The translations under genes were made by a program, and so were the position numbers. Below the pieces are notes generated by a model. The model did not search any database and was not told where the DNA came from. It saw nothing but the letters and a program-made list of their open reading frames with translations. Below are positions 1,579 through 51,972 of a stretch of DNA of 64,000 nt, piece by piece. Positions within the stretch are counted from its first letter, which is position 1; every line of letters starts with the position of its first letter. Origin of the DNA: Gammaproteobacteria bacterium (GTDB lineage Bacteria > Pseudomonadota > Gammaproteobacteria > Ga0077554 > Ga007554); contig JAMPIW010000007.1 in NCBI GenBank assembly GCA_040183005.1, positions 620,001-684,000 of the forward strand, in the 5' to 3' direction.

Positions 1579-2739
1579 ATGAAAATCGGCCTTATCGCCC
1601 CCTATTTTATGCCGGAAATCGGCGGCGCCAATCTGTATTGTTATGAGCTGGCGCGCGCACTGGGCGGTCTTGGCCATGAGGTGCATGTGTTTTCCATTCC
1701 GGGTGCGCTGGAAGACCCGGCGTACCGCTTGCATCCCATCCTCACCCGAAAGCTGGAGCATGATATCCCGGTGTTGCTTCAGCATGATATGGACGTGTGG
1801 CACTCGCTGTTTTTCTACCATGCGCCGCTGGCGCTGCATCGGCGCAACGTGTTTGCAACGGTACATGGCGATGACGGCTTCAGTTTCCAGTTGCGGATGC
1901 GCCTGCCCGGTCGCGATACCCTGGCGCGCCATCTGCTGTGGCGATTGCCGAATCGCGTCAAATCTGCGGTAGACACCGCAATCAACCGTATGGAAAACAT
2001 CTACAATCGTAATGTTTACCAGCAAGCTGTGGACAAACTCGCCGGTATCGTCACGGTCAGCAGCTTCACACGTGACCGTTTCGGTGAACGCTATCTTGGC
2101 GTAGCGAGCAAGTCTTCGGTCATTCCGCCGGGCGTGTCCGAACGTTTCTTTGCCCCGCGTTCCGGTCGCCATTCTCGTGCCCACCTACTCACCGTGACAC
2201 GGCTTGATGAAGGCGACCGTATCAAAAACGTGCATAACGTCATCACTGCGCTGGGGCGCCTGAAAGACCGCTACGATTTTCACTATGAGATTGTCAGCGG
2301 CACGGTCACTGGCGGCTACAAAGCTGAGTTGGAAAACATGATCCGCGATTTGGGGCTGACCGGCCACGTCGCCCTCGTCGGACGCAAGACCGACGCGGAA
2401 CTGCTCGACCTCTATCACGACACAGGCCTGTTCATTCTGGTTTCATATTCCGAGGCAAAGAATTTTGAAGGTTTCGGCATCGTTTTTCTCGAAGCCAACG
2501 CCTGCGGCGTGCCCGTGCTCACCTCACGTGACGGCGGCATGCGCGACTATGTGGTGGATGGCGAAAACGGCATTTATGTGGACACGCCCGATGCCGACGG
2601 TATCGAAGCCGCCCTGGTGCGATACTTCGAAGGCCGTGACTGCTTCGATGCCGATGCCATCCGCGCTCGACCTGAACCCTATCGCTGGGTACATATAGCC
2701 GAGCGGGTCGCTGCGTTCTATCAGGATAGGTTGCCCTAA
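1579..2739 (+). CDS. Glycosyltransferase family 4
   Basis: A 386-residue GT-B enzyme expected to move a sugar from a nucleotide donor onto a lipid-linked glycan at the cytoplasmic membrane face. The N-terminal Rossmann half has PYFMPEIGGANLYCYELARAL (about residues 8–28). The C-terminal half carries the GT4 EX7E-type segment EGFGIVFLEANACGVPVL near residue 297–315. I chose ATG 1579 because the protein then begins MKIGLIAPYF, typical for GT4; the frame is open further upstream but that part overlaps the previous gene. The stop TAA shares its last base with the ATG of the asnB-like gene, so the two are translationally coupled. Acceptor and donor cannot be read from the sequence. Confidence 0.85.
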   Translation: MKIGLIAPYFMPEIGGANLYCYELARALGGLGHEVHVFSIPGALEDPAYRLHPILTRKLEHDIPVLLQHDMDVWHSLFFYHAPLALHRRNVFATVHGDDGFSFQLRMRLPGRDTLARHLLWRLPNRVKSAVDTAINRMENIYNRNVYQQAVDKLAGIVTVSSFTRDRFGERYLGVASKSSVIPPGVSERFFAPRSGRHSRAHLLTVTRLDEGDRIKNVHNVITALGRLKDRYDFHYEIVSGTVTGGYKAELENMIRDLGLTGHVALVGRKTDAELLDLYHDTGLFILVSYSEAKNFEGFGIVFLEANACGVPVLTSRDGGMRDYVVDGENGIYVDTPDADGIEAALVRYFEGRDCFDADAIRARPEPYRWVHIAERVAAFYQDRLP

Positions 2740-4589
2740 TGTGCGGCATCGCTGGGCATTACGCCTATTCATCTGACGCGCCCCCGGTAGACCGGGAAGC
2801 GCTGTTGCGAACCCGCGACAACATGACGGCGCGCGGGCCGGACGGAGCGGGACTCTGGTTGTCCGATGACAGGAAACTGGGGTTGGCACACCGGCGGCTT
2901 GCCATCATCGACTTGACCAAAGCAGGCGCACAGCCGATGCACAGCGCAGATGGCCGTTTCGCCGTCACCTTCAATGGTGAAATCTACAACTACCCGGCGT
3001 TGCGTGCCACGCTCGAAAAAGATGGCGTGATTTTCCGCTCGCATTCCGACACCGAGGTACTGCTGCATCTTTACCGCCGCGACGGCGCGGCCATGGTAGA
3101 AAAACTGCGCGGCATGTTCGCGTTTGCGCTGTGGGATGCCCACACCCGCAGTCTGTTTCTCGCCCGCGACCCTCACGGCATCAAACCGCTTTACTATGCT
3201 GATGACGGCCATACCTTCCGCTTCGCTTCGCAGGTCGCTGCACTCAAGGCAGGTGGGAATGTCGATCTCACTCCCGACCCCGGCGGCATGGTAGGTTTTC
3301 TGTTGTGGGGCTCCGTGCCCGAGCCTTTCACGCTGCACAAGGGCATCCGCCTGCTGCCCGCAGGCAGTACGCTTCAGGTCGCGCAAACGGGCGTGACCCG
3401 CCCCAAGCGTTACTGGCACCTGTCTTCTCTCATGCAACGCGCAGCCCTTCAGGCAGATGCTATTCCCCGAGGTGAAGAACGGGATTACCTGCGCGCGCAA
3501 TTGCTCGACAGCGTACAAGCCCATCTGCTCGCCGATGTGCCCGTGGGCGCCTTTCTCTCCGCCGGGCTGGATTCTTCTACCCTGGTGGGATTGGCGCGCG
3601 AAGCCACACGCGCACCGCTGCAGACCTTGACCCTGAGCTTCGACGATTTTCAGAACACTCCTAATGACGAGTGCCCGATGGCGGCGGACATTGCCCGCCA
3701 TCTCGATGTCACGCACCATTGTATCGTCCTCGCAGCGGGTGAATTGGATCGGGAACTCAATCGCTTTTTCGCCGCCATGGATCAGCCCACGGTGGACGGC
3801 ATCAACACCTGGCTGATCAGCCATGCAGCCAGACAAGCCGGACTGAAAGTGGCACTGTCCGGCTTGGGCGGCGATGAGCTGCTGGGGGGATACTCCAGCT
3901 TTCGGCAAGTGCCTGATATCATGGCGCAGGCACGGCACTCCCCCTGGAGCCACTGCGCACCGCTATACCGCAGGCTGCATACCCGATTGGGCGTCTGGTT
4001 CAAATGGCCGGCCAACAACGCAGGCATTCCTCAATACGGCAAGACACCGGAAGGCGCCTATCATTTGGCCAAAGGCGTGTTCATGCCCTGGGAACTCTCC
4101 GCCATACTGGATCGCGACTTCATCACCGCCGGGATGAAAGCGCTGGCAACAGAAGATGCTGCGCATCAAGAATCGCTGGAGCATCTCAATAGCTTCCAGC
4201 AGGTCGCCTGCCTGGAATCCGTGCGTTATATGCGCAACCAATTGCTGCGCGATTCCGACTGGGTAAGCATGGCGCATTCGCTGGAAATCCGCGTACCACT
4301 GGTCGACAGCGTCCTAACCGAAGCCGTCATCGGCCTGGCCGCCAGCGGACGGCTAGGCAAAAGCAAGTCACTGCTCCCGCAGACACTGTCCCGCCCCCTA
4401 CCGGAGCGGGTCGTGCATCGCCCCAAGACAGGTTTCGTCGTACCTACTTGGCGCTGGCTGCGCCACCATCCCGAGCTTTCCGCATGGAAGCAGGTGCCCC
4501 TGCTGAAACAGCCCCGTATCCACGACAACCGCCGCTGGGCGTACACTTTGCTACACCGTACCCCCGAAATATGCGCGGTCCTGAGATAA
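2739..4589 (+). CDS. asnB: Asparagine synthase-type glutamine amidotransferase
   Basis: A 616-residue class II amidotransferase. It begins MCGIAGHYAY, so Cys2 can act as the N-terminal nucleophile that hydrolyses glutamine. The synthetase half has a PP-loop FLSAGLDSSTL near residue 270; the second position of the usual SGGLDSS is Ala here. A second conserved region SGLGGDELLGGY lies near residue 373. Chemistry is ATP-dependent amidation of a carboxylate using glutamine ammonia. Genes of this kind inside glycan loci are often not for free asparagine and may amidate uronic acids or amino-acid substituents (inference). It overlaps the upstream GT4 by one base and is followed 7 bases later by a GT2. 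Confidence 0.88.
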   Translation: MCGIAGHYAYSSDAPPVDREALLRTRDNMTARGPDGAGLWLSDDRKLGLAHRRLAIIDLTKAGAQPMHSADGRFAVTFNGEIYNYPALRATLEKDGVIFRSHSDTEVLLHLYRRDGAAMVEKLRGMFAFALWDAHTRSLFLARDPHGIKPLYYADDGHTFRFASQVAALKAGGNVDLTPDPGGMVGFLLWGSVPEPFTLHKGIRLLPAGSTLQVAQTGVTRPKRYWHLSSLMQRAALQADAIPRGEERDYLRAQLLDSVQAHLLADVPVGAFLSAGLDSSTLVGLAREATRAPLQTLTLSFDDFQNTPNDECPMAADIARHLDVTHHCIVLAAGELDRELNRFFAAMDQPTVDGINTWLISHAARQAGLKVALSGLGGDELLGGYSSFRQVPDIMAQARHSPWSHCAPLYRRLHTRLGVWFKWPANNAGIPQYGKTPEGAYHLAKGVFMPWELSAILDRDFITAGMKALATEDAAHQESLEHLNSFQQVACLESVRYMRNQLLRDSDWVSMAHSLEIRVPLVDSVLTEAVIGLAASGRLGKSKSLLPQTLSRPLPERVVHRPKTGFVVPTWRWLRHHPELSAWKQVPLLKQPRIHDNRRWAYTLLHRTPEICAVLR

Positions 4590-4596: not shown

Positions 4597-5562
4597 ATGA
4601 GCAAACACTTCGTCCCTACCCGCATCAGTGTCATCATGCCCTGCTACAACACCTCCACGTTTGTCGAGGAGGCGGTGAATTCCGTGATGAACCAGACCTA
4701 TGCCGATGTCGAACTGATTGTCGTGGATGACGGCTCCACTGACGGCAGTCTGGATATCCTGCAACGGCTGGCCGCGCACCATTCGCAGCGACTGAGTCTG
4801 CTGTTTCAAAACCACAGAGGCCCGTATCCGGCACGCAATCTTGGACTGCAACACGCACGCGGCGGGTATGTTGCGTTTCTCGATGCTGACGATTATTGGG
4901 CACCAGATGCACTTGAAAAACTCGCAACCACACTCGACATACATAAGGCCGACATCGCCTACTGCGGCTGGCAAAACGTAGGTATTGGCGCACCCGGAAC
5001 GGAACCCTACATCCCGCCGGATTATAGCCAGATGGATATGGCGGCGGAGTTTTTGCGTTCATGCCCCTGGCCCATCCACGCGGCGCTGGTGCGGCGGGAA
5101 GCTATCAATGCTGTCAACGGATTTTCAGAGCGGTGTTTTTCGGCCATGGATTATGATCTATGGCTGCGACTCTATGCACACACCCAGAAAATCGTGCGGG
5201 TGCCGGAAGTGATGGCCTTTTACCGCTGGCATGACAAAGGGCAAATTTCCAAAACAAAATGGAAACAAGTGCTCAATGCCCTGCAGGTGCGGCGCGATTT
5301 TGTGGCTCAACATCCTGAACGCGTCTCGCATTTGTCAGAAAGCAAAGTACGCGAACTGTCCGATGGTTTCTTGCTGCGTGAAGCTTATCGCGCCTACTGG
5401 CAACGCAATCTGTTTGACGCGCAAAAACTGTTTCGGCATGCCTTCATGCAGGGCTTGTGGAAAGCAGGCGACCTGAAATATCTCATCCCCGCCCTGCTCC
5501 CCAGCACACTTTACCAGTGGCTGGTCAGTACGGCTGACCAGCCGAAAGAGAAGCGCACATGA
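4597..5562 (+). CDS. Glycosyltransferase family 2
   Basis: A 321-residue GT-A enzyme. The first 120 residues hold ISVIMPCYNTSTFVEEAVNSV, the VVDDGSTDGS nucleotide-binding segment and a DXD-type FLDADDYW. It probably adds one sugar during repeat-unit assembly on the cytoplasmic side; donor and acceptor are unknown. It begins 7 bases after the amidotransferase stop, and its TGA overlaps the ATG of the deacetylase (ATGA), so it is part of the same operon. No transmembrane segment is apparent. Confidence 0.88.
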   Translation: MSKHFVPTRISVIMPCYNTSTFVEEAVNSVMNQTYADVELIVVDDGSTDGSLDILQRLAAHHSQRLSLLFQNHRGPYPARNLGLQHARGGYVAFLDADDYWAPDALEKLATTLDIHKADIAYCGWQNVGIGAPGTEPYIPPDYSQMDMAAEFLRSCPWPIHAALVRREAINAVNGFSERCFSAMDYDLWLRLYAHTQKIVRVPEVMAFYRWHDKGQISKTKWKQVLNALQVRRDFVAQHPERVSHLSESKVRELSDGFLLREAYRAYWQRNLFDAQKLFRHAFMQGLWKAGDLKYLIPALLPSTLYQWLVSTADQPKEKRT

Positions 5563-6344
5563 ACGCCGAGCGGATTCCTGTGCTCATGTACCACCGCGTG
5601 GGTGATGTGCACAGCGACTGGGAACGCAGGTATTGCATCAGCCCACAACGCTTTGCCGAACACATGCGTGCTCTGGCGCACTCTGGCTGGCAGGCTATTT
5701 CTGCCGATGGCTTCATAGCATGGCGGCAGGGCCTGAAAGACTTACCAGAAAAGGCCTTCCTGATTAGTTTCGATGACGGTTACAAAGGTGTGTATGAACA
5801 TGCTTGGCCGGTCTTGCGTCAATACCACTGGCCTGCAGCCATGTTTCTGGTGAGCCATTTGATCGGGCAGGACGATGCGTGGTCGAAAAACGAAAACCCT
5901 GGAGGGCGCACCTACCCCCTGTTGAATCGGGCTGAAATCGAAGAGATGGCACAAGGGGGGGTCAGCTTTCACGGCCACTCCCGCCACCACCGGGATCTGA
6001 CCACCTTGAATGACGCGGAGCTTACCGATGAAACCGCGGGCTGCAAGGCCGAACTGGGCGCTCTTGGTATCCCATGCCGCTATTTCGCATACCCCTATGG
6101 CCGTTTCGGCGAGCGGGAAGCGACCGCTGTAAAAGCGGCAGGTTTTGAGGCGGCCTTTTCGGTGCAGCCCGGCTTCAATCGAACCGACGTGGACGCTTTT
6201 CGCATCCGTCGCCTGGATATCTTCGGCACAGATACATCGGCCATGCTGCTGAGAAAAATCATCCTCGGCAGCAACGACGGCCACCTCACGGCCTGGGCTG
6301 GGTATTACCTCAAACAATTGCGGAGCCGACTGGGATTGGGATGA
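5559..6344 (+). CDS. Polysaccharide deacetylase (NodB/CE4 family)
   Basis: A 261-residue NodB-homology domain protein. Visible CE4 motifs are LISFDDGY (motif 1, metal-binding and base Asp pair), GHSRHHRDL (motif 2, HSxxH metal ligands) and YPYGRFGE (motif 3). It should remove N- or O-acetyl groups from a sugar polymer or lipid-linked glycan in a metal-dependent reaction. No signal peptide is seen, so it may act on an intracellular intermediate. The ATG overlaps the GT2 stop. Immediately downstream lies a stretch of decayed genes, so this may now be the last functional cistron of the upstream block. Confidence 0.88.
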   Translation: MNAERIPVLMYHRVGDVHSDWERRYCISPQRFAEHMRALAHSGWQAISADGFIAWRQGLKDLPEKAFLISFDDGYKGVYEHAWPVLRQYHWPAAMFLVSHLIGQDDAWSKNENPGGRTYPLLNRAEIEEMAQGGVSFHGHSRHHRDLTTLNDAELTDETAGCKAELGALGIPCRYFAYPYGRFGEREATAVKAAGFEAAFSVQPGFNRTDVDAFRIRRLDIFGTDTSAMLLRKIILGSNDGHLTAWAGYYLKQLRSRLGLG

Positions 6345-6403
6345 AGCTGTCCATCTGCACCCATATCAACCAACACGCCACGAACCCGTGTCAGATTAGA
6401 TGC

Positions 6404-6615
6404 GCACCGATCAGCTTTGGGCTCTACATTTTTCACCCTTTCATCCCAAAATTATATCTTCTCCTTCTGGATTTATTTGGTTTTGAGCATGAGATTTTTG
6501 GCATCTACTACATTCGATATCCGCTTTTGGCTATACTGCTGTTACTTGTAACGTCTACATCGTACTATTTCATAGAACGGCCTATTCGGGGATTCATAAA
6601 ATTTTTTTATGAGTT
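6404..6615 (+). pseudogene. Remnant: C-terminal part of a membrane O-acyltransferase (acyltransferase-3/OafA-like)
   Basis: Frame 2 encodes ISFGLYIFHPF, then two hydrophobic helices and SYYFIERPIRGFIKFF. This is the typical C-terminal end of the acyltransferase-3 family (final helices followed by a YxxIExP-type motif). The N-terminal ~300 residues including the catalytic region are absent; only about 70 residues survive, embedded in an open frame that starts in unrelated sequence at 6341. The patch is visibly AT-richer than its surroundings, consistent with acquired O-acetylation DNA now lost. Assignment rests on motif recognition, not on a search. Confidence 0.6.
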
Positions 6616-6786
6616 GTGGTTTTTATTCTTGTCACCATTGCATTTGCAATGTGGCGCAGACAAATATGCGAATATAAAAGACTGTACTATTAAGAAGTAT
6701 CTAACCACCGTGCTCAAAGCGCCCTGCACAAGCGAGAGCGGCTCACATACAAGCTCTCCTGCAGCGGCCAAGCATTCTCTCGGGCA

Positions 6787-7167
6787 TAACAAGCACTTGA
6801 AACTATCGGGCCGGACTTCGAATTGCTGTTGGTGGAAGACGGAGGCTGAGATGTTATCGATGAACTGGCCCGACTGGATCCCCCACTTGCCCATAACTAT
6901 GGCCAGCACAATGCTCTGCCATGCGGCATCCGTGCCGCTCGAGGCGGGGTGATCGTGACTCTGGACGATGACCTACAGAACCCACCAGAGGAGATTCTCA
7001 GACTGCTGACCAAGCTGGAGGAGGGCTACGATGTCGTGTATGGCGCGCTAGAGAGGCGCAACCCCATGGTTTCTCTGGCTAACCAGGCCTCTCGCATCAC
7101 CAAGCTGGTCCTGAAGGGTGCTATGGGGACAGAAACGGAACGTAAAACAAGGCTACTTTTATTATGA
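6787..7167 (+). pseudogene. Remnant: ArnC/DPM1-like undecaprenyl-phosphate glycosyltransferase (GT2)
   Basis: One reading frame gives QALETIGPDFELLLVEDGG, an in-frame TGA at 6847, then DVIDELARLDPPLAHNYGQHNALPCGIRAARGG and VIVTLDDDLQNPPEEIL. This is the conserved core of the dolichyl/undecaprenyl-phosphate sugar transferase family. About nine residues expected between LDPP and NYGQHNAL are missing, the usual N-terminal sheet is absent, and the match stops after ASRITKLVLKGAMG, before the C-terminal membrane helices. Stop codon, deletion and truncation make it a clear pseudogene. The frame runs out at 7167, just across the ATG of the next gene. Confidence 0.75.
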
Positions 7168-8291: not shown

Positions 8292-9227
8292 ATGGAAGCC
8301 AGTGTCATAGTTTGCACCTATAATCGAGCCGAATCCCTCATGGATACGCTTCGTGCGCTAAAGTCGCAACAGACTGCGCCTGATCGCACGTGGGAGGTCA
8401 TTGTCGTGGACAACAACTCCAGTGATCATACGCGGCAGGTAGTCACAGAATTCATTAAAGACTGGTCTGCCCTGCACTACGAGTTTGAAAGCCAGCAAGG
8501 ACTCTCCCATGCACGCAACCGTGGCATTGCCAGTGCCCAAGGCAAAGTACTATTATTTACCGACGATGACGTACTGCCCGAACCGGACTGGCTTGAAACG
8601 ACGCTGCAGGGGTTGGAAAAATATCAGGCCGCTGCGTGCGGGGGATACATCGCGCCAATCTGGGAAACGCAGCCACCTGAATGGCTGACTGAGCGGTTCT
8701 ACGGTTTTCTGGCAATTCGCACTGACCGTACCGACGATTACCCGATCACCGAGGCAAGCCAGGCACCCTTCGGTGCCAATATGGCAATAAGGCGCGCAGT
8801 ATTTGATCGTGCTGGCCTGTTCGATACAAATCGTGGCCGCAAGGGGAAGGTGCTTGCCAGCGGCGAAGATGGTGAGATGTTCGAACGCATTCTGGCAGAA
8901 AATCTGAAAGCGGTTTTCCTCGGGGCGTCACGAGTTCACCATAAGGTCGAAGCATTTCGCCTGACCAAGCGATATTTCCGGCGCTGGCGCTTTCAAACAA
9001 GCCGCAACATCGCGCAAAGCAGTGGAGTCACGGGCGACCGCCGGCTGTTTGGCATACCGCTGTATGTCTTTCCTCAATTCCTGCGCGCCATCGTGCGCAT
9101 GCTTTGGGGCTACTTCACACAACCCCGAGACGAGGCCTTCAATCGCGAGATCGTGGTGTTTCATTTTCTCGGCATGCTCCACGGGCTGTGGAAAACACGC
9201 CAACAGGAAAAACATGATATCGTTTAG
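8292..9227 (+). CDS. Glycosyltransferase family 2
   Basis: A 311-residue GT-A enzyme. It starts MEASVIVCTYNRAESLMDTL, contains VVDNNSSDHT and a DXD-type LFTDDDVLPEPDW near residue 95, and then a conserved acceptor-side region with GANMAIRR and SGEDGEMFERI. The C-terminal third is amphipathic (FRRWRFQTSRN) and probably peripheral to the membrane. It resembles many exopolysaccharide GT2 enzymes and also the N-terminal domain of the fusion protein at 11274–14501. The following gene begins 45 bases later. Confidence 0.85.
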   Translation: MEASVIVCTYNRAESLMDTLRALKSQQTAPDRTWEVIVVDNNSSDHTRQVVTEFIKDWSALHYEFESQQGLSHARNRGIASAQGKVLLFTDDDVLPEPDWLETTLQGLEKYQAAACGGYIAPIWETQPPEWLTERFYGFLAIRTDRTDDYPITEASQAPFGANMAIRRAVFDRAGLFDTNRGRKGKVLASGEDGEMFERILAENLKAVFLGASRVHHKVEAFRLTKRYFRRWRFQTSRNIAQSSGVTGDRRLFGIPLYVFPQFLRAIVRMLWGYFTQPRDEAFNREIVVFHFLGMLHGLWKTRQQEKHDIV

Positions 9228-10299: not shown

Positions 10300-11190
10300 A
10301 TGATCGATATCAAGCTACTTCGCTACCTCACGGCCCACCCGCTAAACCGTCGAACCCGCTTCCGTTCGATACTCCCCATAGTGTGTTGGAGTATTGCAAC
10401 GAGATTGGTGCCCGGATGCCAATTCATTGTTCCGTTCGCTAATAATGCGCGACTCGTAGTTACACCCGGTCGCTGGGGCAGCGAAGCGAATGCATTATGC
10501 GGCCTGCACGAATTTAACGACATGGGCTTCTTGTTGCACTTTCTCCGATCAACAGACCTATTTTGCGATATTGGCGCGAACATCGGCGCCTATACCGTTC
10601 TAGCATCGGCCGGCATCGGCGCAAGAAGCCTGGCCTTCGAACCAATTGAAAGTTCCTATGCCGAATTAAGGAAGAATGTCGATGTTAACCAAATCGCTGA
10701 ACTCGTCGACGCCCGGCGTATGGGTGTCGGAAAGGCGCTAGGGAAACTGACGCTGACCTCCCAAAAAGACACCATGAATCACGTGGTCATGGGGACAGCC
10801 ACCGGACCGAACGAAACTGTAGATGTTGATACACTGGACCGCGCACTGGCTGGACGCATGCCGGCGCTTTTGAAGGTGGATGTTGAAGGTTGGGAGCACG
10901 AGGTGTTGCAGGGTGCCGCGAGCACGCTGCGCCATCCTGACCTTCTCGCCGTTATTATCGAGTTAAACCAGAGCGGCAACCGTTACGGCTTCAGTGACGA
11001 GGACATTCACCAGACGCTGATTAATCACGGTTTCTCTAGCCACTGGTATAAGCCGTTTGAGCGACAGTTGATCGATTTGGGCGGGAAATACAATGCCAGT
11101 GGTAATACCCTTTACGTTCGTAATTCCGAAATCATCGGGGAACGATTGCGGAACGCGCCACCTTTCAGGGTTAGGGATTTCTATATTTGA
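10300..11190 (+). CDS. FkbM family SAM-dependent methyltransferase
   Basis: A 296-residue class I methyltransferase. Motif I is FCDIGANIGAYTVLAS near residue 87–102 (SAM-binding glycine loop). The FkbM signature LLKVDVEGWEHEVLQGA lies near residue 190. FkbM enzymes O-methylate hydroxyl groups, and in glycan clusters they usually methylate a sugar residue. The stop codon overlaps a possible TTG start of the next frame. The preceding 94 bases contain no recognisable gene. Confidence 0.85.
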   Translation: MIDIKLLRYLTAHPLNRRTRFRSILPIVCWSIATRLVPGCQFIVPFANNARLVVTPGRWGSEANALCGLHEFNDMGFLLHFLRSTDLFCDIGANIGAYTVLASAGIGARSLAFEPIESSYAELRKNVDVNQIAELVDARRMGVGKALGKLTLTSQKDTMNHVVMGTATGPNETVDVDTLDRALAGRMPALLKVDVEGWEHEVLQGAASTLRHPDLLAVIIELNQSGNRYGFSDEDIHQTLINHGFSSHWYKPFERQLIDLGGKYNASGNTLYVRNSEIIGERLRNAPPFRVRDFYI

Positions 11191-11273: not shown

Positions 11274-14200
11274 ATGAACCCTGGTTCCAATCTCGCAGTT
11301 GTGATCTGCACTTACAACCGCAGTCACTCGCTCATCGAAACTTTGGCCTCACTTTATGCCGATGGCTACGCGGGGCCGGCACCGATCGATATAGTGGTTG
11401 TCGCAAACAATTGCAGCGATGACACGCTAGCCCAACTCTCGCAATTCCGTTCGGCACACTCACAAGCCTATTTAAGGCTGAGCTGGCTAGAAGAACCCAA
11501 AGCTGGGAAATCCTACGCGTTGAATACAGCTATCGCCCACACGCATCATGATGTGCTGTGCTTTATCGATGACGATCAAGTCGTCGAGCCAGGTTTTTTT
11601 GCGCATCTCGTGGATGGAATCGAGCGTTATCCACAAGACGATATTTTCTGCGGCCGCATTTGGCCGGCATGGGATGGCAGCGAACCATCGTGGGTACATG
11701 CCAAGGAACCCTACGCCATACCGATTCGGCCTTTCCCAGAGTTTGATCTGGGAACCAAATCTATTCGCCTCAACGCCGGAGATCGGTCTCCCAGCGGAGG
11801 GAATATCACAGTTCGACGCCGCGTATTCGATGTGGTTGGAGCATTTTCCATCGACCTTGGGCCTATAGGCCACAACTTGGCGGGTGGAGAAGACCATGAC
11901 TTTCTGAAGAGAGCAGCTTTGCATGGATATACCACGCGCTATTTGTCTCACGTAAGGCAATTACATGCTATTGACGCAGAGCGAATGAGCACACCTTATA
12001 TTCTTCGGAAGAGTTACTCCCGCTCGCGGTCAAATTTTCTGGTACATTCTCAAGAGACTCTGCCCAGGCTTTACATGTTCCGTAAAGTTTTAAGCTACCT
12101 GGGCAGTGCCGTTTTTTCACGAGATCACAATCGCCGCTTTTTTTATCTCGTCCGGCTGGCTGCTAGTACAGGGGAACTATCTGGGGCATTTGAATTGACG
12201 TGGGCAGCAGCGCTGAACCCGCTACGTGCCGGTTTTCGCCGTTTGATTCGCAACACGGCAGTGGCAAAACCTGTCTCTGCCACGAATGAACAGGCATCCA
12301 TCGACACCGGCAAGATGGCGCCGGGAATCGCCCCCCTCGCACTGGCGCTTGGGATGGCGACAGCCTCCGCCATTGTGTCATCGCCATCGCAGGTATTATT
12401 GGAGGGCACGCTGTCCGCCGCCTTAGCCGCCATCCTGTTTACCCTTGCCCTTCTGGTGAAGTCGATCATCGGTTTTTCACGGACGGGACCCTCGCTGAAG
12501 CAAGAAATTCAGGAACACTACGCCCGTTATTCCCTGTTCGCTTTCGCGCGCCTTGCCGCTTGGGCGCTGCTGATAGGCGGACTGATGGCGGCGGCAGGCG
12601 TCGCCGTGTATTCATCCCTGAACCGAATTACGGGCTTCGAATTCACCACTACAGGCGCGGTGATTGCCGCTTTCGGCGGCATCGGTGCCGTCACGTCGCT
12701 GCAGTTCTGCCGCCATCTGCTCTATCTGCCCGCCACGATCGCCGCCTCGTCGCATTACCGGCTGAGCCGGTTGTATCCGCTGTGGCGTCGGCTCTCACCG
12801 GGACGATTGCAGATCTTCCAGTGGACTCTTGCCCTGGCTGCGGCACTTGTGGTCATTGCAGACCTGACCGATATGCTGACCCAAAGACATTGGGTTCGCC
12901 TGGCGGCCTGGGGAATACTCGCGGGCGCAGTGGCAGCCGTGGTCTGGGCGCTGTCACCCGGAGACGAAACCCTGCCAACCGGCGGCGGCGCTGCAACCGA
13001 TCCCGCCCGGCCGAACATCGTCATGATCGGATCGGACACCCTGCGCGCCGATCGCGTCGGCAACGGCGAGCATCACCGCGAGCTAACCCCTTACCTGAAC
13101 GCGCTCGCTGCGTGCGGCACGCATTTTACCCACTGTTACGTACCATGCGCGCGCACCGCACCCAGCCTGATCTCACTGCTGACCGGCACATGGCCGCACA
13201 CCCACGGCGTGCGCGACAACTTCATTGGTGACGATCAGCTCGACCTCCCCGTGCCCGCCCTCCCCGCTCTGCTTGCGAAGGCCGGTTACATGACGGCGGC
13301 CATTGGTGATTGGGCGGCCGCCGACATGGGCAAGTTCAAACTCGGTTTCGAACAGCGCGACCTGTCCGAGGATCAGTGGAATATCAAATACCTCATCCGC
13401 CAGGGACCGAAGGACCTGCGGCTGTTTCTTTCCCTGTTCACCCACAACGGTTTCGGCAAGCGCTTTCTGCCGGAGATATATTACCTTGGCGGCATCCCGC
13501 TAACACGCGAAATCGGCCGTGATGCGCGGGCGATGATCAGCGATTTGGCCGCCAAAGAGCAGCCGTTTTTCCTGAATGTCTTCATGGCAACCACTCACCC
13601 GCCCTTTGGATCGGAATACCCTTATTACACGCTGTACTCCGACCCTGCTTATCGGGGCGAGTCAAAATTCGTGATGGCGCGTCTGACGGATCCATTTGAG
13701 ATCATCCGCCGTCAGGGCGATAGCAAAAAGGAGTTCGACCTTGATCAGATTATTGACCTCTACGATGGCTGCGTAAAGAGTTTCGATGATGAAGTGGCCA
13801 GGATCGTTGCACACATTAAGACCTGCGGCCTGGAGCAGAACACTGTCATCGTCATCTATAGTGATCATGGCATGGAGTTCTTTGAACACGAGACATGGGG
13901 GCAAGGAAACAGCGTCATGGGTGACCATAGCGCACATGTCCCATTAATCATCAAGGACCCGCGTAAACCACCAGGCGGCACGGTTTCACGCATCACGCGG
14001 AGCGTGGACCTTGCACCCACCCTGCTGGATCTTCTTGGCATGGAACAACCACCGGAGATGGATGGGGTCTCGCTTGCGCCCTATATGGAAAACCGCGACA
14101 TCGACCTTGGCTTGACTGCTCACAATGAAACTGGCATCTGGTTAACAACACCTCCGGGAATGCCTCCGGATCATCTGCATTACCCCGACCTGCCTGATTT

Positions 14201-14501
14201 GCTCGAAGTACCGGACAAGCGGAACGGTACTCTGGCGATCAAGCCGGAATATCAGAAAATTATCGTCAGCGCGAAAGATCGGATGATTAGAACCGAAAGA
14301 TGGAAGCTCACCTATCAGCCGATGCGTAATGGAGAAATCTACAAATTGTTTGACCTGCTAAATGACCCCGGGTGCTACTCGAACGTGCTTGATCTGCACC
14401 CCGAGGTTGCAGAAGATCTGCGGCAAAAACTCAGGGCGTGGATGGAGGTTGATTTGGCTATTGCAATTCGGGCGGAGGGCAAAAGCGGCACCACGGGTTA
14501 G
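11274..14501 (+). CDS. GT2 – polytopic membrane – alkaline phosphatase superfamily (sulfatase-like) fusion protein
   Basis: A 1075-residue fusion when started at ATG 11274; the frame is open back to a TTG at 11187 that overlaps the fkbM stop. Residues ~7–300 are a GT2 domain (NLAVVICTYNRSHSL, CFIDDDQVVEPGF). Residues ~350–565 hold about six hydrophobic segments. Residues ~575–1065 are a sulfatase/phosphotransferase-type domain with PNIVMIGSDTLRADR (metal site), ARTAPSLISLLTGTWPHTHG and YSDHGMEFFEH (metal site). The residue at the place of the formylglycine Cys is Thr628 and the following Arg of CXPSR is Leu. That fits a Thr-nucleophile phosphotransferase (LtaS/EptA-like) better than a true sulfatase. 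Base composition rises in GC after the GT2 part, suggesting joining of two genes. A role in adding a sugar and a phospho-substituent to one polymer is inference. Confidence 0.75.
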   Translation: MNPGSNLAVVICTYNRSHSLIETLASLYADGYAGPAPIDIVVVANNCSDDTLAQLSQFRSAHSQAYLRLSWLEEPKAGKSYALNTAIAHTHHDVLCFIDDDQVVEPGFFAHLVDGIERYPQDDIFCGRIWPAWDGSEPSWVHAKEPYAIPIRPFPEFDLGTKSIRLNAGDRSPSGGNITVRRRVFDVVGAFSIDLGPIGHNLAGGEDHDFLKRAALHGYTTRYLSHVRQLHAIDAERMSTPYILRKSYSRSRSNFLVHSQETLPRLYMFRKVLSYLGSAVFSRDHNRRFFYLVRLAASTGELSGAFELTWAAALNPLRAGFRRLIRNTAVAKPVSATNEQASIDTGKMAPGIAPLALALGMATASAIVSSPSQVLLEGTLSAALAAILFTLALLVKSIIGFSRTGPSLKQEIQEHYARYSLFAFARLAAWALLIGGLMAAAGVAVYSSLNRITGFEFTTTGAVIAAFGGIGAVTSLQFCRHLLYLPATIAASSHYRLSRLYPLWRRLSPGRLQIFQWTLALAAALVVIADLTDMLTQRHWVRLAAWGILAGAVAAVVWALSPGDETLPTGGGAATDPARPNIVMIGSDTLRADRVGNGEHHRELTPYLNALAACGTHFTHCYVPCARTAPSLISLLTGTWPHTHGVRDNFIGDDQLDLPVPALPALLAKAGYMTAAIGDWAAADMGKFKLGFEQRDLSEDQWNIKYLIRQGPKDLRLFLSLFTHNGFGKRFLPEIYYLGGIPLTREIGRDARAMISDLAAKEQPFFLNVFMATTHPPFGSEYPYYTLYSDPAYRGESKFVMARLTDPFEIIRRQGDSKKEFDLDQIIDLYDGCVKSFDDEVARIVAHIKTCGLEQNTVIVIYSDHGMEFFEHETWGQGNSVMGDHSAHVPLIIKDPRKPPGGTVSRITRSVDLAPTLLDLLGMEQPPEMDGVSLAPYMENRDIDLGLTAHNETGIWLTTPPGMPPDHLHYPDLPDLLEVPDKRNGTLAIKPEYQKIIVSAKDRMIRTERWKLTYQPMRNGEIYKLFDLLNDPGCYSNVLDLHPEVAEDLRQKLRAWMEVDLAIAIRAEGKSGTTG

Positions 14502-15306
14502 TTGGGGAGCCTATTTTGGACTCTTGAGGCTTGGCTTCCTGGGGCTGTTTTTGATCATCCATCTGGGAAGGTGCTACGGGTGGCGCCGCCACTGTTGTGT
14601 CATTCCCATTGCCGGGCGCTGCCGTATTGCTCGCAGGTAATTCGGCCGGACTGGCCGTCTTCGGTTCGCCATTGATAGGCGCAGGATAAGGCAATTTTCC
14701 ACCCAATTCACGATAGCGCCGCTGCAATGTCTTGGACTCCGGCGAGCGAGTGAGTCCTTCACTGGCAGTTTTTAACGCATCTTCGCGGCTGCCAAGTTTC
14801 CGGTAGAAGTCGATCAAGCCAATATAAGCCGCAACATAGTCAGGCTTCAGGCGGATCGCCTCCATAAACTCCCGCGAACTATCCGCAACCTTTCCCAGGC
14901 GATCATAAACCCGTCCGAGATCCGCTTTGACCATAGCCAGGTAGGAATAGTACTCCGGGGACACTTCGGTATGGCCCAATACATACCGGAACTCACCCAC
15001 TGCAGCTTGCAACTCCTCTTGCCTTGCACCCTTGTTTGCGGACTGTGCCGTGGCACGCGCGATAGATTTCAATCCATGGCAGTAATGATGGCCATGGGGC
15101 ATCCCTGCCGGAAAAGAGCCAGCGACCCGGTATGCTTGGGCATTGGCTTCATAGTTGTCAGCCGAGAGTTGGTGGCAAAAGGATGGCAGCATTTGCACAT
15201 CTCTTGCCGTCATCGCATAGCCTGCGCCGGCGCTGCCCGAAAAAAACAGCAGGGCAGTCACCAGCAAGGCATCGTTTGAAGCGCAGCGTCTTCTTTTAGA
15301 TATCAA
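14458..15306 (-). CDS. Exported TPR-repeat protein with Pro-rich tail
   Basis: About 282 residues from a TTG at 15306; ATG 15213 is an alternative start and the frame is open to 15555. The hydrophobic stretch LLVTALLFFSGSAGAGYA looks like a signal peptide with an AxA-type end. The middle region holds at least two tetratricopeptide-like helices pairs (YSYLAMVKADLGRVYDRLGKV; PDYVAAYIGLIDFYRKLG). The C-terminal ~70 residues are Pro/Ala/Gln-rich and probably disordered. The first 44 bases of its 3' end overlap the fusion gene on the other strand. Upstream of the TTG the frame reads through a palindromic repeat, so the original start may have been altered by that element. Exact function is unknown. 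Confidence 0.6.
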   Translation of the reverse strand: MISKRRRCASNDALLVTALLFFSGSAGAGYAMTARDVQMLPSFCHQLSADNYEANAQAYRVAGSFPAGMPHGHHYCHGLKSIARATAQSANKGARQEELQAAVGEFRYVLGHTEVSPEYYSYLAMVKADLGRVYDRLGKVADSSREFMEAIRLKPDYVAAYIGLIDFYRKLGSREDALKTASEGLTRSPESKTLQRRYRELGGKLPYPAPINGEPKTASPAELPASNTAAPGNGNDTTVAAPPVAPSQMDDQKQPQEAKPQESKIGSPTNPWCRFCPPPELQ

Positions 15307-15427
15307 CCCAGATTGTCCATTAGGCGAAATAGAGCGCACAACGCCGTTCGTGGTGAGCTTGCCGAACCATGAACGGCCCTTCGACAGGCTCAGGGCGAAC
15401 GGTTTTGGGGCTAATGGACAATCTGGG
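15307..15427. repeat. Short palindromic element with 17-bp terminal inverted repeats
   Basis: CCCAGATTGTCCATTAG at 15307–15323 is perfectly inverted at 15411–15427. The 87 bases between contain two internal hairpin-forming units, one bounded by CCGTTC…GAACGG and one with TTCGACAGGCTCAGGGCGAA, a motif I know as a widespread interspersed palindromic repeat in proteobacterial genomes. It lies immediately upstream of the TPR gene start. It looks like a REP/MITE-class element rather than a regulatory site; no coding capacity is seen. Confidence 0.65.
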
Positions 15428-15677
15428 ATCAATTCATTCATGTTGAGTACGCTCGCATACAACGTTATTCGTGCATAACGGCAATCGCCTGCATCATTCG
15501 AATAGGATAATGCACACCGGGGCCAAGGGCAAACATGGTATTGGCGCGTCAACATATTGACTATTCATTGCCGGATCTTCAGCTAACACATCGGTTTTTG
15601 GTGATTATTTCGGCAATCAACGCCACCATGTTGGATGGCACATTTCTCGCATATATCCTCGTACCCAGGAGGTGTTT

Positions 15678-47083: not shown

Positions 47084-48202
47084 CTATTCTCTATTTTTTA
47101 TGACTTCGTCTATCACTTCCAGGTAACGTCTTATCACAATCCTCTCGTCAAATTCACGTTGCATTTTCTCCCTGCCCTTACGACCCATTTCAGCCCGCTG
47201 CTCACTGGTCAGCATCAACATACGCTCTAATATATTTGCCAAATCTACCGGGTCTTTAACTTTACACAAATAACCTGTTTCACCATCATCCACCACCTCA
47301 CGGCAACCTGCCACGTCAGTGGCCACGATCGGTCGAGCCATTGCAGAAGCTTCCAGTAAAATCCTTGATATGCCTTCACGATATGAAGGCAAAACAACGC
47401 AATCAGCATTGGCAATATAGGGAGCCACATTATCCGTTTCACCAAGATATTCAACCACCTCCTCAGCTACCCACCCATCGACTTGCTCACGAAGAATGGC
47501 CGTGCGATTCGCCACACCTAATTGGCCGAGCAACTGGAAACGAACCTTTGGATGCCTCGCTTTAACCAACCGCGCTGCCTCAACAAACTCCAACACGCCT
47601 TTATCTCTGAGCATACGTGCAATCAACAGAAAAACCGTGGACGAATTGCTTGCCGGCGGCGCAGCTATAAATTGCGTAAGATTCACCCCCGAACCCGGCA
47701 CCCGCTCCACTTTCTCTGCCGGCACCAACCCGCGCTCGACAAATAAACCCATGTCATCCATATTTTGAAAAAACACCTTGCGCGGCCAAGATTGAGACAG
47801 CTTGTATAACCTCTCAACAATGCGCGTCAACCAAGATTCACGAATAAAAGCTGTGCCTAATCCCGACACCATATTGATACAAGGCAGCCCGAGCGAACGC
47901 GCCGCCAATGTGCCGTAAATATTGGGTTTGATGGTGAAGTGCAACACTAAATCTGGCTGAAGCGTGCGGTACAGCTTCCGGTAAGCCAAAAAAGTCTTCG
48001 CATCGGCGATTGGACTTGACCCTTTGTTATCCATCTCAATATCATAAACATCACAACCCAATTCGCGCAGCCTGAGGCTGAACTCATCCCAAGGCGCAAT
48101 GACCACAACTTTGAAATGTTGCTCGATAAGCGCGCGAATAGTGCCGATACGGAAGTTGAACAAATACCAGGTCGTATTGGATGTGAGAGCAATTAATTTC
48201 AA
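47084..48202 (-). CDS. Glycosyltransferase family 4
   Basis: A 372-residue GT-B enzyme similar in layout to N-acetylgalactosaminyl- and fucosaminyl-type GT4 proteins. KLIALTSNTTWYLFNFRIGTI starts the N-terminal domain; the donor region is PSYREGISRILLEASAMARPIV near residue 275. TTG 48202 is preferred because GGAGG lies nine bases upstream and it starts two bases after the asnB stop; ATG 48223 would overlap asnB. It is the last gene of the leftward O-antigen operon in this window. Confidence 0.88.
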   Translation of the reverse strand: MKLIALTSNTTWYLFNFRIGTIRALIEQHFKVVVIAPWDEFSLRLRELGCDVYDIEMDNKGSSPIADAKTFLAYRKLYRTLQPDLVLHFTIKPNIYGTLAARSLGLPCINMVSGLGTAFIRESWLTRIVERLYKLSQSWPRKVFFQNMDDMGLFVERGLVPAEKVERVPGSGVNLTQFIAAPPASNSSTVFLLIARMLRDKGVLEFVEAARLVKARHPKVRFQLLGQLGVANRTAILREQVDGWVAEEVVEYLGETDNVAPYIANADCVVLPSYREGISRILLEASAMARPIVATDVAGCREVVDDGETGYLCKVKDPVDLANILERMLMLTSEQRAEMGRKGREKMQREFDERIVIRRYLEVIDEVIKNRE

Positions 48203-48204
48203 AT

Positions 48205-50178
48205 CTATTGTGCCTCCAGCCATGCCTGAAACATCAACACATTCCACAAACGTGCCATCCAATTACGCTGCCCGCTCAAATGCTCCGCCCATATTTGCCG
48301 AATCGGCTCTGGATGAAGATAACCCTCGCGCAGTAAGCGCGCCTCATCCAACAAGTCTTCCGCCCAGTCACGCAACGGCCCGCGCAGCCAATTGTCCAAC
48401 GGCACACCAAAGCCCATTTTGGGGCGATCGATCAGTTCACGCGGTACGTGGCGGTAAAGCACTTGGCGCAATGGCCATTTAGTTTGACCATCACGCAGCT
48501 TGTATTCCAGCGGTAAGCTCCAGGCAAATTCAAAGACCCGGTGATCCAAAAACGGCACCCGGCTTTCCAGTGAAACCCCCATCGTAGCGCGATCAACCTT
48601 GACCAGAATGTCGTCGGGCAAGTAGCTGATGCTATCGAGCACCATCATGCGCTCCACGTCATTCAATTCTTCCAACGTAGGTCGCGCACCCCTCAAGTGT
48701 GTCGGTGGTTCTTTGCCGTTAATCACCCATTCAGCCGGATTTTGCAGATGTGAAACAATACCAATGTAAAGTTCATCCACCGTGCGACTAGAAAGCACCC
48801 CTGCACCCTTGTGTAATTTATCTCCCAACGAAGAATAGTGTGCCGCACCGGGAATTAAACGCGCCAAGCTATCCCACCAGTCCGGAGCAATCGAAGTAAT
48901 CCCCTTGGCGACAAGCGCACGTAGCGGGGCTGGCACAACCGCCAATTTTCGCCACAAACTCTCCGTAATCTGGTAGCGGTTATATCCGCAAAACAACTCA
49001 TCTCCCGCATCACCCGACAGCGACACCGTCACATGCTGCTTAGCCAATTGGCTCACCAAAAAAGTGGGTATCTGCGATGAGTCCGCGAAAGGCTCGCAAT
49101 ATAAGCCAGGCAAACGCGGAACCACCTTCATCGCCTGTGCTGGCGTGACATATAGCTCGGTATGCTCCGTACCCAAATGCTGCGCCACCGTCTTGGCGTG
49201 AACTGCCTCGTTGTAACCTTCTTCGTTGAAACCGATGGTGAACGTTTTGACCGGGCGCGAAGATTGCGCCTGCATCAACGCGACCACCGTACTGGAATCA
49301 ATACCCCCCGAGAGAAATGCGCCTAACGGCACGTCGGCCATCATTTGCTGGCGCACTGCGTCTTTGGCCAACACCTCCAGCGCGTCCACCGCCTCATCAG
49401 CCGTTCCCGCAAATGGTTTGGCCACGCCAGCGCGCGCCACTGCAACCGCGTCCCAATATTTCCAGATCCTGGGTTCAGGCCGCGCTAATGAAACAGACAA
49501 CAGACACCCCGGCTCCAGCTTGGCTATGCCTTGATAAATAGAATACGGCGCAGGGATGTAGTTATGCCGCAACAGCAAGCACAGTGCGCCACGGTCAATG
49601 TCTGCAGCAAAGGCAGGATGCGCCTTGAGTGCCTTAAGCTCCGAGCCAAACAAAAATACCCTCTTGTTATCACTGCCCTGCCAGCCGTAATACAGCGGCT
49701 TCTCGCCAATTCGATCGCGCGCCAAGGTCAGCGTATGTGTTTGCCGATCCCACAACGCAATCGCAAACATACCGATGGATTTCTTGAGTGTCGCCTCTAC
49801 CCCCCAAGCCTCAATCCCTGCCAGCAACGTTTCCGTATCCGAATGCCCGCGCCACTCAATGACGTCCCCCTTTGAAAAAGGGTGACCAGGAGGGAGGATT
49901 TGCCCTAGCTCCTTCCGTAACGCCAAATGATTGTAAATCTCCCCATTAAACGCGATCACATAACGCCCACTCGCCGACACCATCGGCTGATGCCCAGCGG
50001 GTGACAAATCCACAACTGCCAAACGTCGATGTCCCAACCCAATCCGCTGCTCGCTATCACACCAAACCCCACCATCATCCGGCCCGCGATGGATGAGCGT
50101 ATCTGCCATACGGCGCAGTAAAGCCGCATCACCGTCGGCACCCACTACGCCCCCCAGAAAACCGACCAAACCACACAT
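48205..50178 (-). CDS. asnB: Asparagine synthase (glutamine-hydrolysing) in O-antigen operon
   Basis: A 657-residue amidotransferase. MCGLVGFLGG gives the N-terminal Cys nucleophile, HRGPDD and FNGEIYNH are glutaminase motifs, FLSGGIDSSTV near residue 268 is the PP-loop, and LSGDAGDELFCGYNRY is the second synthetase motif. The chemistry is glutamine-dependent amidation; in this operon the target may be a sugar acid or amino-acid substituent. ATG 50178 places Cys at residue 2; the frame is open upstream. The preceding gene in the operon direction is hipA, not a glycan gene, and a remnant of a related asnB lies beyond hipBA. Confidence 0.92.
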   Translation of the reverse strand: MCGLVGFLGGVVGADGDAALLRRMADTLIHRGPDDGGVWCDSEQRIGLGHRRLAVVDLSPAGHQPMVSASGRYVIAFNGEIYNHLALRKELGQILPPGHPFSKGDVIEWRGHSDTETLLAGIEAWGVEATLKKSIGMFAIALWDRQTHTLTLARDRIGEKPLYYGWQGSDNKRVFLFGSELKALKAHPAFAADIDRGALCLLLRHNYIPAPYSIYQGIAKLEPGCLLSVSLARPEPRIWKYWDAVAVARAGVAKPFAGTADEAVDALEVLAKDAVRQQMMADVPLGAFLSGGIDSSTVVALMQAQSSRPVKTFTIGFNEEGYNEAVHAKTVAQHLGTEHTELYVTPAQAMKVVPRLPGLYCEPFADSSQIPTFLVSQLAKQHVTVSLSGDAGDELFCGYNRYQITESLWRKLAVVPAPLRALVAKGITSIAPDWWDSLARLIPGAAHYSSLGDKLHKGAGVLSSRTVDELYIGIVSHLQNPAEWVINGKEPPTHLRGARPTLEELNDVERMMVLDSISYLPDDILVKVDRATMGVSLESRVPFLDHRVFEFAWSLPLEYKLRDGQTKWPLRQVLYRHVPRELIDRPKMGFGVPLDNWLRGPLRDWAEDLLDEARLLREGYLHPEPIRQIWAEHLSGQRNWMARLWNVLMFQAWLEAQ

Positions 50179-50313
50179 CAGAAATCGCCCTTCAAAGCAT
50201 TGCCAAGATACACGTTGAGCCTGAACACATCGCAGTCTGTGCAGCACGATCTATTGCCGCGCCGCCTCTAATACCCTCTCCAGACCTTGTTACGCCCCCC
50301 TTGTTACTCACTA

Positions 50314-51642
50314 TCAGATGCCAGCGTTGAGACGGCTCACTTGGTCGATGAGGCCGTCAAATATCCGCCTGGATACCACGATAGGGAACTCCGGCAGGAG
50401 TTCATCCGCCACTGATTCGATCACTGCTGGCGTCATGCCGACTATTCGCTGGATGACCGCTTCGAAATCGGATCCCAAGGCATTGGCCTTGGCCACCGCG
50501 TTCCAATGTCGGCGTTGGATCTCGGCGATCCGGTAGTGGGTGTTCTTCGTATGCAGCGCCATGGCCATCTTCACTTTCTGCCACTGTAACTCGCGAGCGC
50601 CTTTTCCAATTACCGGCCAAGCTGACATCACATCGTAGAGCGGCGTTAGCCAAAAGTGCCCCTGCGGTCCAATGGAAACACTGAAATTCTTGGCGTGTCC
50701 ATCGGGTGCAGCGAGCATCCAAAATATGAGCTGAGCCGTCAGAAAGTTTGTGCGGTCAGACTCGGCATTGTCGCTGCCGCGCAATGTATCAAGGATGGAT
50801 GCGATGCCGGGTCCACCCTGTTCCTCATACTTACGTTCCGGCGGCAGTCCTGCCACTTGGCAAAAGTCTTCCTGCGGCAAACGAGCCCACCAGCCGTTGA
50901 TGAGGCTGCGGTCAAACCGCGTGACCGCCAGCACCTTGTGTCGGCCGAACATTTCAATGGAACAGTCAGCAACCGGCAAACCGTAAGCGCGCACCAGCTT
51001 TGCGCAAAGCCATTCGTTCTCGACGGAGGTGGAAAAGTCGGCGCGCATTCCACCCACCTCGCCCAACGGTAGCTTCAGAATGTGCGTTGTGGGAGTCGTC
51101 CCACGCGGTCGGCACCATTGATCGTTGTGCCAGAGCAGCGCGGTCTTTTCCTGTGCCCCGGCAATTGAGATTCGTAGCTCATCTTCTTCGGGCACACCAA
51201 TGTTACGATTGCTTACAGTGTCATTGAGAATTCTTTCAACATCGGATTCGGAAAGCGGCTCGGCGTCGATTCGTCGAACATCAGGAGCCGGACTACCACC
51301 GGGAAGAAGTTGGAGAGCGCCAACACAATCGCGGCCGATCTTCTCGAGCAGTTGGAACGCCTGCGTAGAGCCGGTACCGAATTTGGACGCCAAGCGCTTG
51401 CGGATGCCCAGGCTATCGGGAAGCAAGTTGTCGAAATAGGACTCGACGACGCTCCCTGACAACGGAGCCGTCCCTTGGGAGAGCGGCAGCGAAAGGGATA
51501 GTGGCCGCCCCTGTGGATTTTCGAGCCAGGATGCATCGTAGGAAAATGAATGTCCGCCTGCCGAGGTAAACGTCCAATGACCCACGAACTCGCCGTTCAT
51601 CCAGACGTCAAGCACCTTTCTGGATGAGGGGCGCCCAGCCAT
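50314..51642 (-). CDS. hipA: HipA-family Ser/Thr kinase toxin
   Basis: A 442-residue HipA. The N-terminal part has FDNLLPDSLGIRKRLASKFG, the flexible activation loop region SIAGAQEKTALL follows, then the catalytic segment APDGHAKNFSV (Asp and Asn) and the Mg site LTPLYDVMSAWP. E. coli HipA phosphorylates glutamyl-tRNA synthetase and causes growth arrest; the target here is not known. ATG 51642 overlaps the hipB stop (TAATG), while ATG 51648 is two codons earlier. The conserved residues look intact. Confidence 0.92.
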   Translation of the reverse strand: MAGRPSSRKVLDVWMNGEFVGHWTFTSAGGHSFSYDASWLENPQGRPLSLSLPLSQGTAPLSGSVVESYFDNLLPDSLGIRKRLASKFGTGSTQAFQLLEKIGRDCVGALQLLPGGSPAPDVRRIDAEPLSESDVERILNDTVSNRNIGVPEEDELRISIAGAQEKTALLWHNDQWCRPRGTTPTTHILKLPLGEVGGMRADFSTSVENEWLCAKLVRAYGLPVADCSIEMFGRHKVLAVTRFDRSLINGWWARLPQEDFCQVAGLPPERKYEEQGGPGIASILDTLRGSDNAESDRTNFLTAQLIFWMLAAPDGHAKNFSVSIGPQGHFWLTPLYDVMSAWPVIGKGARELQWQKVKMAMALHTKNTHYRIAEIQRRHWNAVAKANALGSDFEAVIQRIVGMTPAVIESVADELLPEFPIVVSRRIFDGLIDQVSRLNAGI

Positions 51643-51932
51643 TACCATGGTTCCCGAGGTTTTGTTTTGAGACTTCCTGTGGCAACTACTTTTTCCGATG
51701 TTTTTGCCGAGAGGGGGTGCCGTGGCTCAACCTGAAGTTCTGCCTCCAGCGCCATCAGGACAGTGAGCAGTTGGTCGATGGACATCCTTTCAGGGTGATT
51801 TTCAATCACCGAGATGCGTTCCTGGGACAAGCCAATCCTCTTGCCCAGCTCACCTTGCGACCATCTCTTGGCTTTCCTCAATTGCTTTAGGATAGGCCCG
51901 AGCTGGCCGGTAGTGCGAATATTGTTAGTCAT
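51642..51932 (-). CDS. hipB: HipB-family antitoxin, HTH DNA-binding protein
   Basis: A 96-residue protein with an XRE-type helix-turn-helix: LGPILKQLRKAKRWSQGELG followed by KRIGLSQERISVIENHPERM. The C-terminal tail is basic and probably contacts HipA. It neutralises HipA and represses the operon. The start has AAGGA about ten bases upstream, and two operator-like repeats lie upstream of that. Confidence 0.9.
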   Translation of the reverse strand: MTNNIRTTGQLGPILKQLRKAKRWSQGELGKRIGLSQERISVIENHPERMSIDQLLTVLMALEAELQVEPRHPLSAKTSEKVVATGSLKTKPREPW

Positions 51933-51972
51933 GGCAAATATTCCTTAATATTTATTTATGCACATGCTAACC

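Follow-up and report, generated by a model that had tools for sequence, protein, structure and literature searches.

A sulfatase-fold domain fused to an exchangeable glycosyltransferase head in proteobacterial exopolysaccharide loci: a candidate threonine-dependent glycan phosphotransferase of the cytoplasmic face

The window considered here, that is, the entire stretch of 64,000 nucleotides from a gammaproteobacterial genome, encodes at 11274-14501 (plus strand), within a single open frame, a protein of 1075 amino acids that combines a family 2 glycosyltransferase (GT2) head with a membrane module and a sulfatase-like catalytic domain. The exact start of the gene is unsure, with in-frame candidates upstream of 11274 (GTG codons and, farthest, TTG at 11187). 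The features in and around the gene, with residues numbered in the fusion protein, are:

2739..4589, plus strand: asparagine-synthase-like amidotransferase, recurring in 46 of 81 loci (locus comparison)
4597..5562, plus strand: GT2, recurring in 68 of 81 loci (Pfam, locus comparison)
5559..6344, plus strand: polysaccharide deacetylase, recurring in 55 of 81 loci (Pfam, locus comparison)
8292..9227, plus strand: HpsE-like GT2, recurring in 67 of 81 loci (NCBIfam, locus comparison)
10300..11190, plus strand: FkbM-type methyltransferase, immediately upstream of the fusion gene (Pfam, NCBIfam)
11274..12218, plus strand: GT2 glycosyltransferase head of type I, residues 1-315 (Pfam, NCBIfam, AlphaFold2, head-type tree)
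12219..12329, plus strand: linker, residues 316-352, mostly disordered and variable in length, the exchange border (AlphaFold2, blastn)
12330..12953, plus strand: membrane module with helices 353-369, 372-399, 417-453, 459-484, 509-536 and 540-560 (AlphaFold2, hydropathy, charge, conservation)
13005..14480, plus strand: PF00884 catalytic domain of the alkaline phosphatase superfamily, residues 578-1069 (Pfam, PDB profile search, fold search)
13035..13037, plus strand: Asp588, predicted metal ligand, invariant (alignment)
13155..13157, plus strand: Thr628, predicted nucleophile, invariant, at the place of the Cys of CXPSR (alignments)
13596..13598, plus strand: His775, invariant, where sulfatases have their conserved active-site His (THPPF; alignment)
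13863..13868, plus strand: Asp864-His865 (SDHG), predicted metal ligands, invariant (alignment)
14458..15555, minus strand: gene of a TPR protein that looks secreted, convergent with the fusion gene; related genes occur in 64 of 81 loci, mostly adjoining the body (locus comparison)

The original prediction that one unbroken frame of 3.2 kb joins a GT2 glycosyltransferase, about six membrane helices and an alkaline-phosphatase-superfamily domain was confirmed by Pfam searches and by an AlphaFold2 model built with 63 sequences. The GT2 profile matches residues 9-185 (E 2.5e-20), and this part of the protein contains both a DXD-like motif, CFIDDDQ (DDD at 98-100), and a catalytic-base motif, GGEDHDF. 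The C-terminal portion belongs to the alkaline phosphatase superfamily by profile (Sulfatase, PF00884, residues 580-923, E 1.3e-41) as well as by fold (Z 36.7), and is also matched by the Pfam profile Phosphodiest (NPP-type; E 3.9e-15). The model (mean pLDDT 87.5) shows the GT and catalytic domains as folded units, the membrane helices and a disordered stretch at residues 316-347 (pLDDT <50), and the loops of the membrane module contain two motifs, FS.TGP and HYR.SRLY.LW, that are conserved among the relatives.

To gather relatives, 84,980 species genomes were scanned, and 80 loci were retained. In most of these loci, which come from independent assemblies, the GT, the membrane part and the sulfatase-like domain share one uninterrupted frame, so that a frameshift or an assembly join at 12200-12320, the circumstance that would have undermined the fusion, is ruled out, as is chance; genomes of the same family agree as well. 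The fusion protein family is thus real but uncommon. The body, i.e. the membrane part together with the sulfatase-like domain, is present in 14 of the 274 sampled genomes of the window's class and in 6 of the 8 genomes of its family; in the phylum-wide sample, it was found in 1 genome of 398, namely the window's own. The hosts of the relatives are, by their names, mostly beta- and gammaproteobacteria, including Thiobacillus, Nitrotoga, Thauera, Aromatoleum, Sulfuriferula, Chromatiaceae and others. One body relative (G242 C1, 2953515-2955599) contains an in-frame TAG stop and is, perhaps, a decayed copy.

The polymer setting that had been claimed for the fusion protein is borne out by the neighbourhood, which is rich in polysaccharide genes. 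In addition to the recurring genes listed above, GT4 neighbours are found in 67 of the 81 loci, some loci also have flippase or Wzt genes, and genes for a Wzm/Wzt-like ABC exporter lie upstream in the window's genome (L087). The TPR protein gene, which is mostly convergent with the body gene in the relatives too, has no NCBIfam match, and no gene for CDP-polyol donor synthesis was detected among the annotated recurring neighbours. Sulfotransferase-like genes lie near 59 of the 81 loci, and in many relatives (L051, L055, L050, L071, L072, L076, L083 and others) a gene of this type with a PF13469 match is located directly or one gene upstream of the body. However, a sulfotransferase neighbour as a rule was rejected given that no recurring sulfotransferase was found near the window gene; the only PF13469 match in the window's genome is about 0.42 Mb away from the fusion gene. 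Within the same neighbourhood, a short ORF at 6341-6952 (plus strand) resembles the C-terminal remnant of an acyltransferase-3 gene, although it has no Pfam match, and is perhaps what remains of a gene that decayed within the variable part. The window also contains a second polysaccharide-type cluster (47084-64000, minus strand), with an XrtA/PEP-CTERM-like amidotransferase at 48205-50247 and several glycosyltransferase-like genes, and two exosortase (TIGR02602) genes are present in the same genome beyond the window (G000 C7, 470714-471430 and 800187-800897).

When the two halves of the fusion protein were compared among the relatives, a fixed, co-inherited pair was ruled out: the head tree and the body tree disagree. 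The GT heads form two well separated types, I (13 rows) and II (35 rows), with branch support of 100/100, and there are two further states, a type III GT2 head (e.g. in L063) and stand-alone bodies. These states (I, II, III and none) require 19 changes on the body tree, and types I and II alone require 11; moreover, type I clusters no more than shuffled labels do, with 116 of 500 shuffles as low. In particular, L006 has both the head (90%) and the body (87%) in common with the window protein, whereas L007 and L057, with bodies at 88% and 82% to that of the window, have type II heads. At the DNA level, blastn similarity to L057 begins at 12263, at the border of the head and the linker, and similarity to L007 begins at 13010; the genes downstream of the fusion gene are similar to those of L007 and L057 (74-92%), and the upstream glycosyltransferase genes are largely dissimilar. 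The GT head is, then, a swappable module on a constant body, and the fusion gene lies across the boundary of the variable and constant parts of the locus. The shift in base composition that had been noticed near the domain junction, at about 12270, was recovered as well, with GC rising around 12250-12500 from 0.51 (11750-12249) to 0.63 (12500-12999), and is likely explained by the start of the part shared with L057, i.e. the border of head and body exchange; the Ala/Gly/Leu-rich membrane part may by itself raise the GC content too. In the linker of L006, at about 10990, a duplicated stretch (NPLRAGLQRLIHST) is found, again at the junction of head and body.

Separate homologues of the two halves near each other, which had been proposed as a check, do exist. 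Ten loci with stand-alone bodies carry a free GT that is 52-60% identical to the type II heads; this GT adjoins the body in L056 and lies within a few kb of it in most of the other loci. In L083, the free GT is 49% identical to a type I head. The coexistence of stand-alone bodies with a matching free GT nearby is a classic sign of halves that work together. The repeated exchange of heads on a constant body amounts to a natural experiment, which suggests a coupling of the two activities that still allows their separation; the stand-alone relatives make both halves testable.

Examination of the active site of the sulfatase-like domain showed that D588, R591, D593, T628, H775, D864 and H865 are invariant in the alignment of 81 sequences. 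The nucleophile motif of sulfatases is Cys/Ser-X-Pro-X-Arg; its counterpart here is Thr-Ala-Pro-Ser-Leu (residues 628-632), in which, as had been predicted, Thr occupies the nucleophile place, and both this Thr and Leu632, in place of the Arg, are retained in all 81 sequences. The second sulfatase motif, GKWHLG, is replaced by a SDWCGAD-type sequence at 678-684, with the Lys and His missing, and the late Lys region of sulfatases by an invariant WGQGNS. With Thr628 and Leu632 invariant and the Arg, Lys and His positions of sulfatases gone, an active formylglycine S1 sulfatase is excluded. A comparison of the metal site with phosphotransferases showed likeness: Thr in the nucleophile place and Asp-His metal ligands occur as in LtaS and EptA, and the SDHG of EptA lines up with D864-H865. 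The first metal ligand in LtaS and EptA is Glu, as opposed to Asp588 in the window protein, and a one-metal centre is known from phosphonate monoester hydrolases as well as from LtaS and EptA; judging from the conserved residues, D588, T628, D864 and H865 would form a centre of this kind.

This likeness did not extend to kinship. The original prediction had assigned the domain to the LtaS/EptA type; however, a PDB profile search with a profile of 40 sequences placed S1 sulfatases and phosphonate monoester hydrolases on top, and LtaS, YejM and EptA gave weak sequence matches, so a relationship to LtaS and EptA by sequence was not supported, the hydrolases being nearer. Fold comparisons by Foldseek and VIA-align, whose lists were dominated by matches to the catalytic domain, led to the same neighbours, with 6hr5 (Z 36.7, rmsd 2.8 over 359 residues) and 4uph (Z 34.2, 408 residues); LtaS and EptA were not among the best 50 fold matches listed, and PbgA (6xlp) was, with Z about 31. 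That the nearest relatives in both sequence and fold are hydrolases rather than transferases counts against a role in phosphotransfer. Conceivably, the domain is a Thr-dependent phosphodiesterase or sulfatase-like enzyme that trims or edits the growing glycan, a possibility with which the Phosphodiest match, to an NPP-type family that likewise employs Thr, and the recurrence of sulfotransferases as neighbours agree. We nevertheless consider a hydrolase unlikely because a formylglycine sulfatase is eliminated by the residues described above and because the invariant membrane module and the coupling to a GT suit synthesis better than degradation.

The location of the catalytic domain with respect to the membrane is a separate issue. 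In the fused proteins, loops 400-424 and 480-511 plus the stretch 561-578, all on the catalytic side, contain on average 12.6 Lys and Arg residues, versus 1.2 for the loops on the other side; in the 15 rows in which the GT part is absent or unlike the window head, the respective values are 10.8 and 1.0. The same crude charge method reproduces the known N-in, C-out arrangement of E. coli YejM and EptA, although it gave no clear orientation for OpgB and BcsG, in which some helices were overlooked or put in the wrong place by the crude helix finder. Fused forms with heads of types I, II and III all carry the first helix, and stand-alone bodies (L056, L072, L080 and others) lack it and have five helices. 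The GT2 head requires nucleotide sugars, which are cytoplasmic; taken together with the six helices and the positive-inside bias, this leads to the prediction that the catalytic domain is cytoplasmic too, so that both catalytic domains probably reside on the cytoplasmic side of the membrane. Under this model, the extra first helix would be what fusion to a cytoplasmic GT needs if the catalytic domain is to stay inside. The six predicted helices and the charge bias do not match the N-in, five-helix, extracytoplasmic layout of the LtaS/EptA type, and the proposal that the two activities act across the membrane is, accordingly, not upheld.

The pattern of the membrane loops, long-short-long-short, counts against the cytoplasmic model in that it resembles those of PbgA and EptA, whose catalytic domains are periplasmic, with loop lengths like those of EptA and YejM. 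If helix 353-369 did not span the membrane, the GT could remain cytoplasmic while the catalytic domain, as in LtaS, EptA and PbgA, was periplasmic and added phosphoethanolamine or phosphoglycerol after export. The Thr in the nucleophile place and the one-metal site would suit this arrangement, and in a comparison of 6xlp with the model of a stand-alone body (pTM 0.90) the five core helices and the domain could be lined up in sequence (residues 1-586 versus 2-699). However, the rmsd of this superposition is 22 A over 411 residues, which indicates that the membrane part and the catalytic domain are arranged differently in PbgA and in the stand-alone body; furthermore, this orientation would expose the strongly positive loops to the periplasm and leave the uncharged ones in the cytoplasm, and the extra helix is found only in the fused forms. 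A periplasmic catalytic domain therefore appears improbable. Still less probable is a pseudo-enzyme in which the domain, by binding lipid or glycan, would serve as a regulator or scaffold of the GT, a role put forward for PbgA/LapC: the presence of PbgA among the best 50 fold matches listed and the long, conserved membrane loops are in its favour, but the invariance of every predicted catalytic and metal residue in 81 sequences would be unusual for a dead enzyme.

We favour, with a probability of about one half, the interpretation of the fusion protein as a bifunctional membrane enzyme, encoded in an exopolysaccharide locus, that combines sugar transfer by the GT2 head with Thr628-dependent phosphotransfer to the same lipid-linked glycan at the cytoplasmic face. 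Under this scheme, the GT2 head would move a sugar from a nucleotide sugar to the lipid-linked glycan at the cytoplasmic face, and the membrane module would keep the C-terminal sulfatase-fold domain at the same face; Thr628, together with one metal (D588, D864, H865), would form a covalent phospho-enzyme, and the phospho-group, taken from a phospholipid of the inner leaflet or from a nucleotide donor, would then be passed to the same glycan. As far as can be judged from the sequences, phosphotransfer is the most likely chemistry, given that Thr is the predicted nucleophile, that the residues typical of sulfatases are gone, and that the domain is joined to a GT in a biosynthetic setting, although the sulfotransferase genes near so many of the loci may point to sulfate chemistry instead. 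The presence of a membrane module hints that the substrate or the donor is a lipid, and the lack of a CDP-polyol donor gene among the annotated recurring neighbours leans towards a phospholipid donor. Of the coupled sugar transfer and phospho-decoration of one polymer envisaged in the original prediction, the single-chain fusion, the Thr in the nucleophile place and the polysaccharide setting hold, the arrangement on opposite sides does not, and the phosphotransfer itself is putative. More tentatively, and at somewhat less than even odds, the protein can be viewed as a modular polymer-diversifying enzyme, in which recombination where the head meets the membrane module would couple a constant phospho-modification, made by a cytoplasmic-face, Thr-nucleophile phosphotransferase of the sulfatase fold, to varied sugar specificities.

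Genes of this kind have been encountered before. In the exopolysaccharide cluster of Thauera MZ1T, asparagine synthase (3247), GT2 (3248), a deacetylase (3249) that is required for flocculation, GT2 (3250), a hypothetical protein (3251) and GT2 (3252) are followed by 'sulfatase [wbbL]' (3253) (PMC4784049), and the counterpart of 'sulfatase (wbbL)' in the psc1 cluster of Rubrivivax gelatinosus is RGS1_10427 (PMC3684757). Fused members are present in other Thauera species (L051, L055 and L079), and from these and the matching neighbours, rather than from their own sequences, Tmz1t_3253 and RGS1_10427 probably belong to the same family. The parts of the two reports available to us give no function, domains or topology for 'sulfatase (wbbL)', and a literature search did not find a study of the window protein, so the gene has probably been seen and named already, apparently with no examination of its chemistry, its location or the way it is built from modules. 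Loci of this kind underlie floc and biofilm formation in activated-sludge and sulfur-oxidising bacteria, and the gene is annotated simply as 'sulfatase'. If the proposed scheme is correct, a Thr-dependent sulfatase-fold domain tied to a GT on the inner side of the membrane would act at a site different from that of LtaS, EptA and BcsG.

Among known systems, the Thauera MZ1T and Rubrivivax clusters, with their asparagine synthase, family 2 GTs, polysaccharide deacetylase and 'sulfatase', are alike by gene descriptions. TagF-like capsule polymerases join a glycosyltransferase and a phosphate-transferring domain in one chain for a surface polymer (PMC5974469), a similar plan with a different, TagF-like fold and, accordingly, a convergent analogue at most. 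The S1 sulfatases and phosphonate monoester hydrolases (6hr5, 4upl, 4uph and 2w8s) are nearest by profile and fold (Z 34-37, 360-410 residues), but the window protein has Thr rather than the formylglycine Cys, has lost the sulfatase-site residues Arg, Lys and His, and is membrane-bound and fused to a GT2. PbgA/YejM/LapC shares the five helices and the sulfatase-like domain, but superimposes poorly over the whole chain and is a periplasmic LPS sensor. The phosphoglycerol/phosphoethanolamine transferases LtaS, EptA, OpgB and BcsG similarly combine membrane helices with an alkaline-phosphatase-superfamily domain and, in the case of LtaS and EptA, a Thr-type one-metal centre, but their sequence similarity to the window protein is weak, their domains are extracytoplasmic whereas that of the window protein is predicted to be cytoplasmic, and they have no GT head. 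It is the predicted cytoplasmic location, combined with the exchangeable GT head, that appears to distinguish this family among the membrane-bound, Thr-type enzymes of the alkaline phosphatase superfamily.
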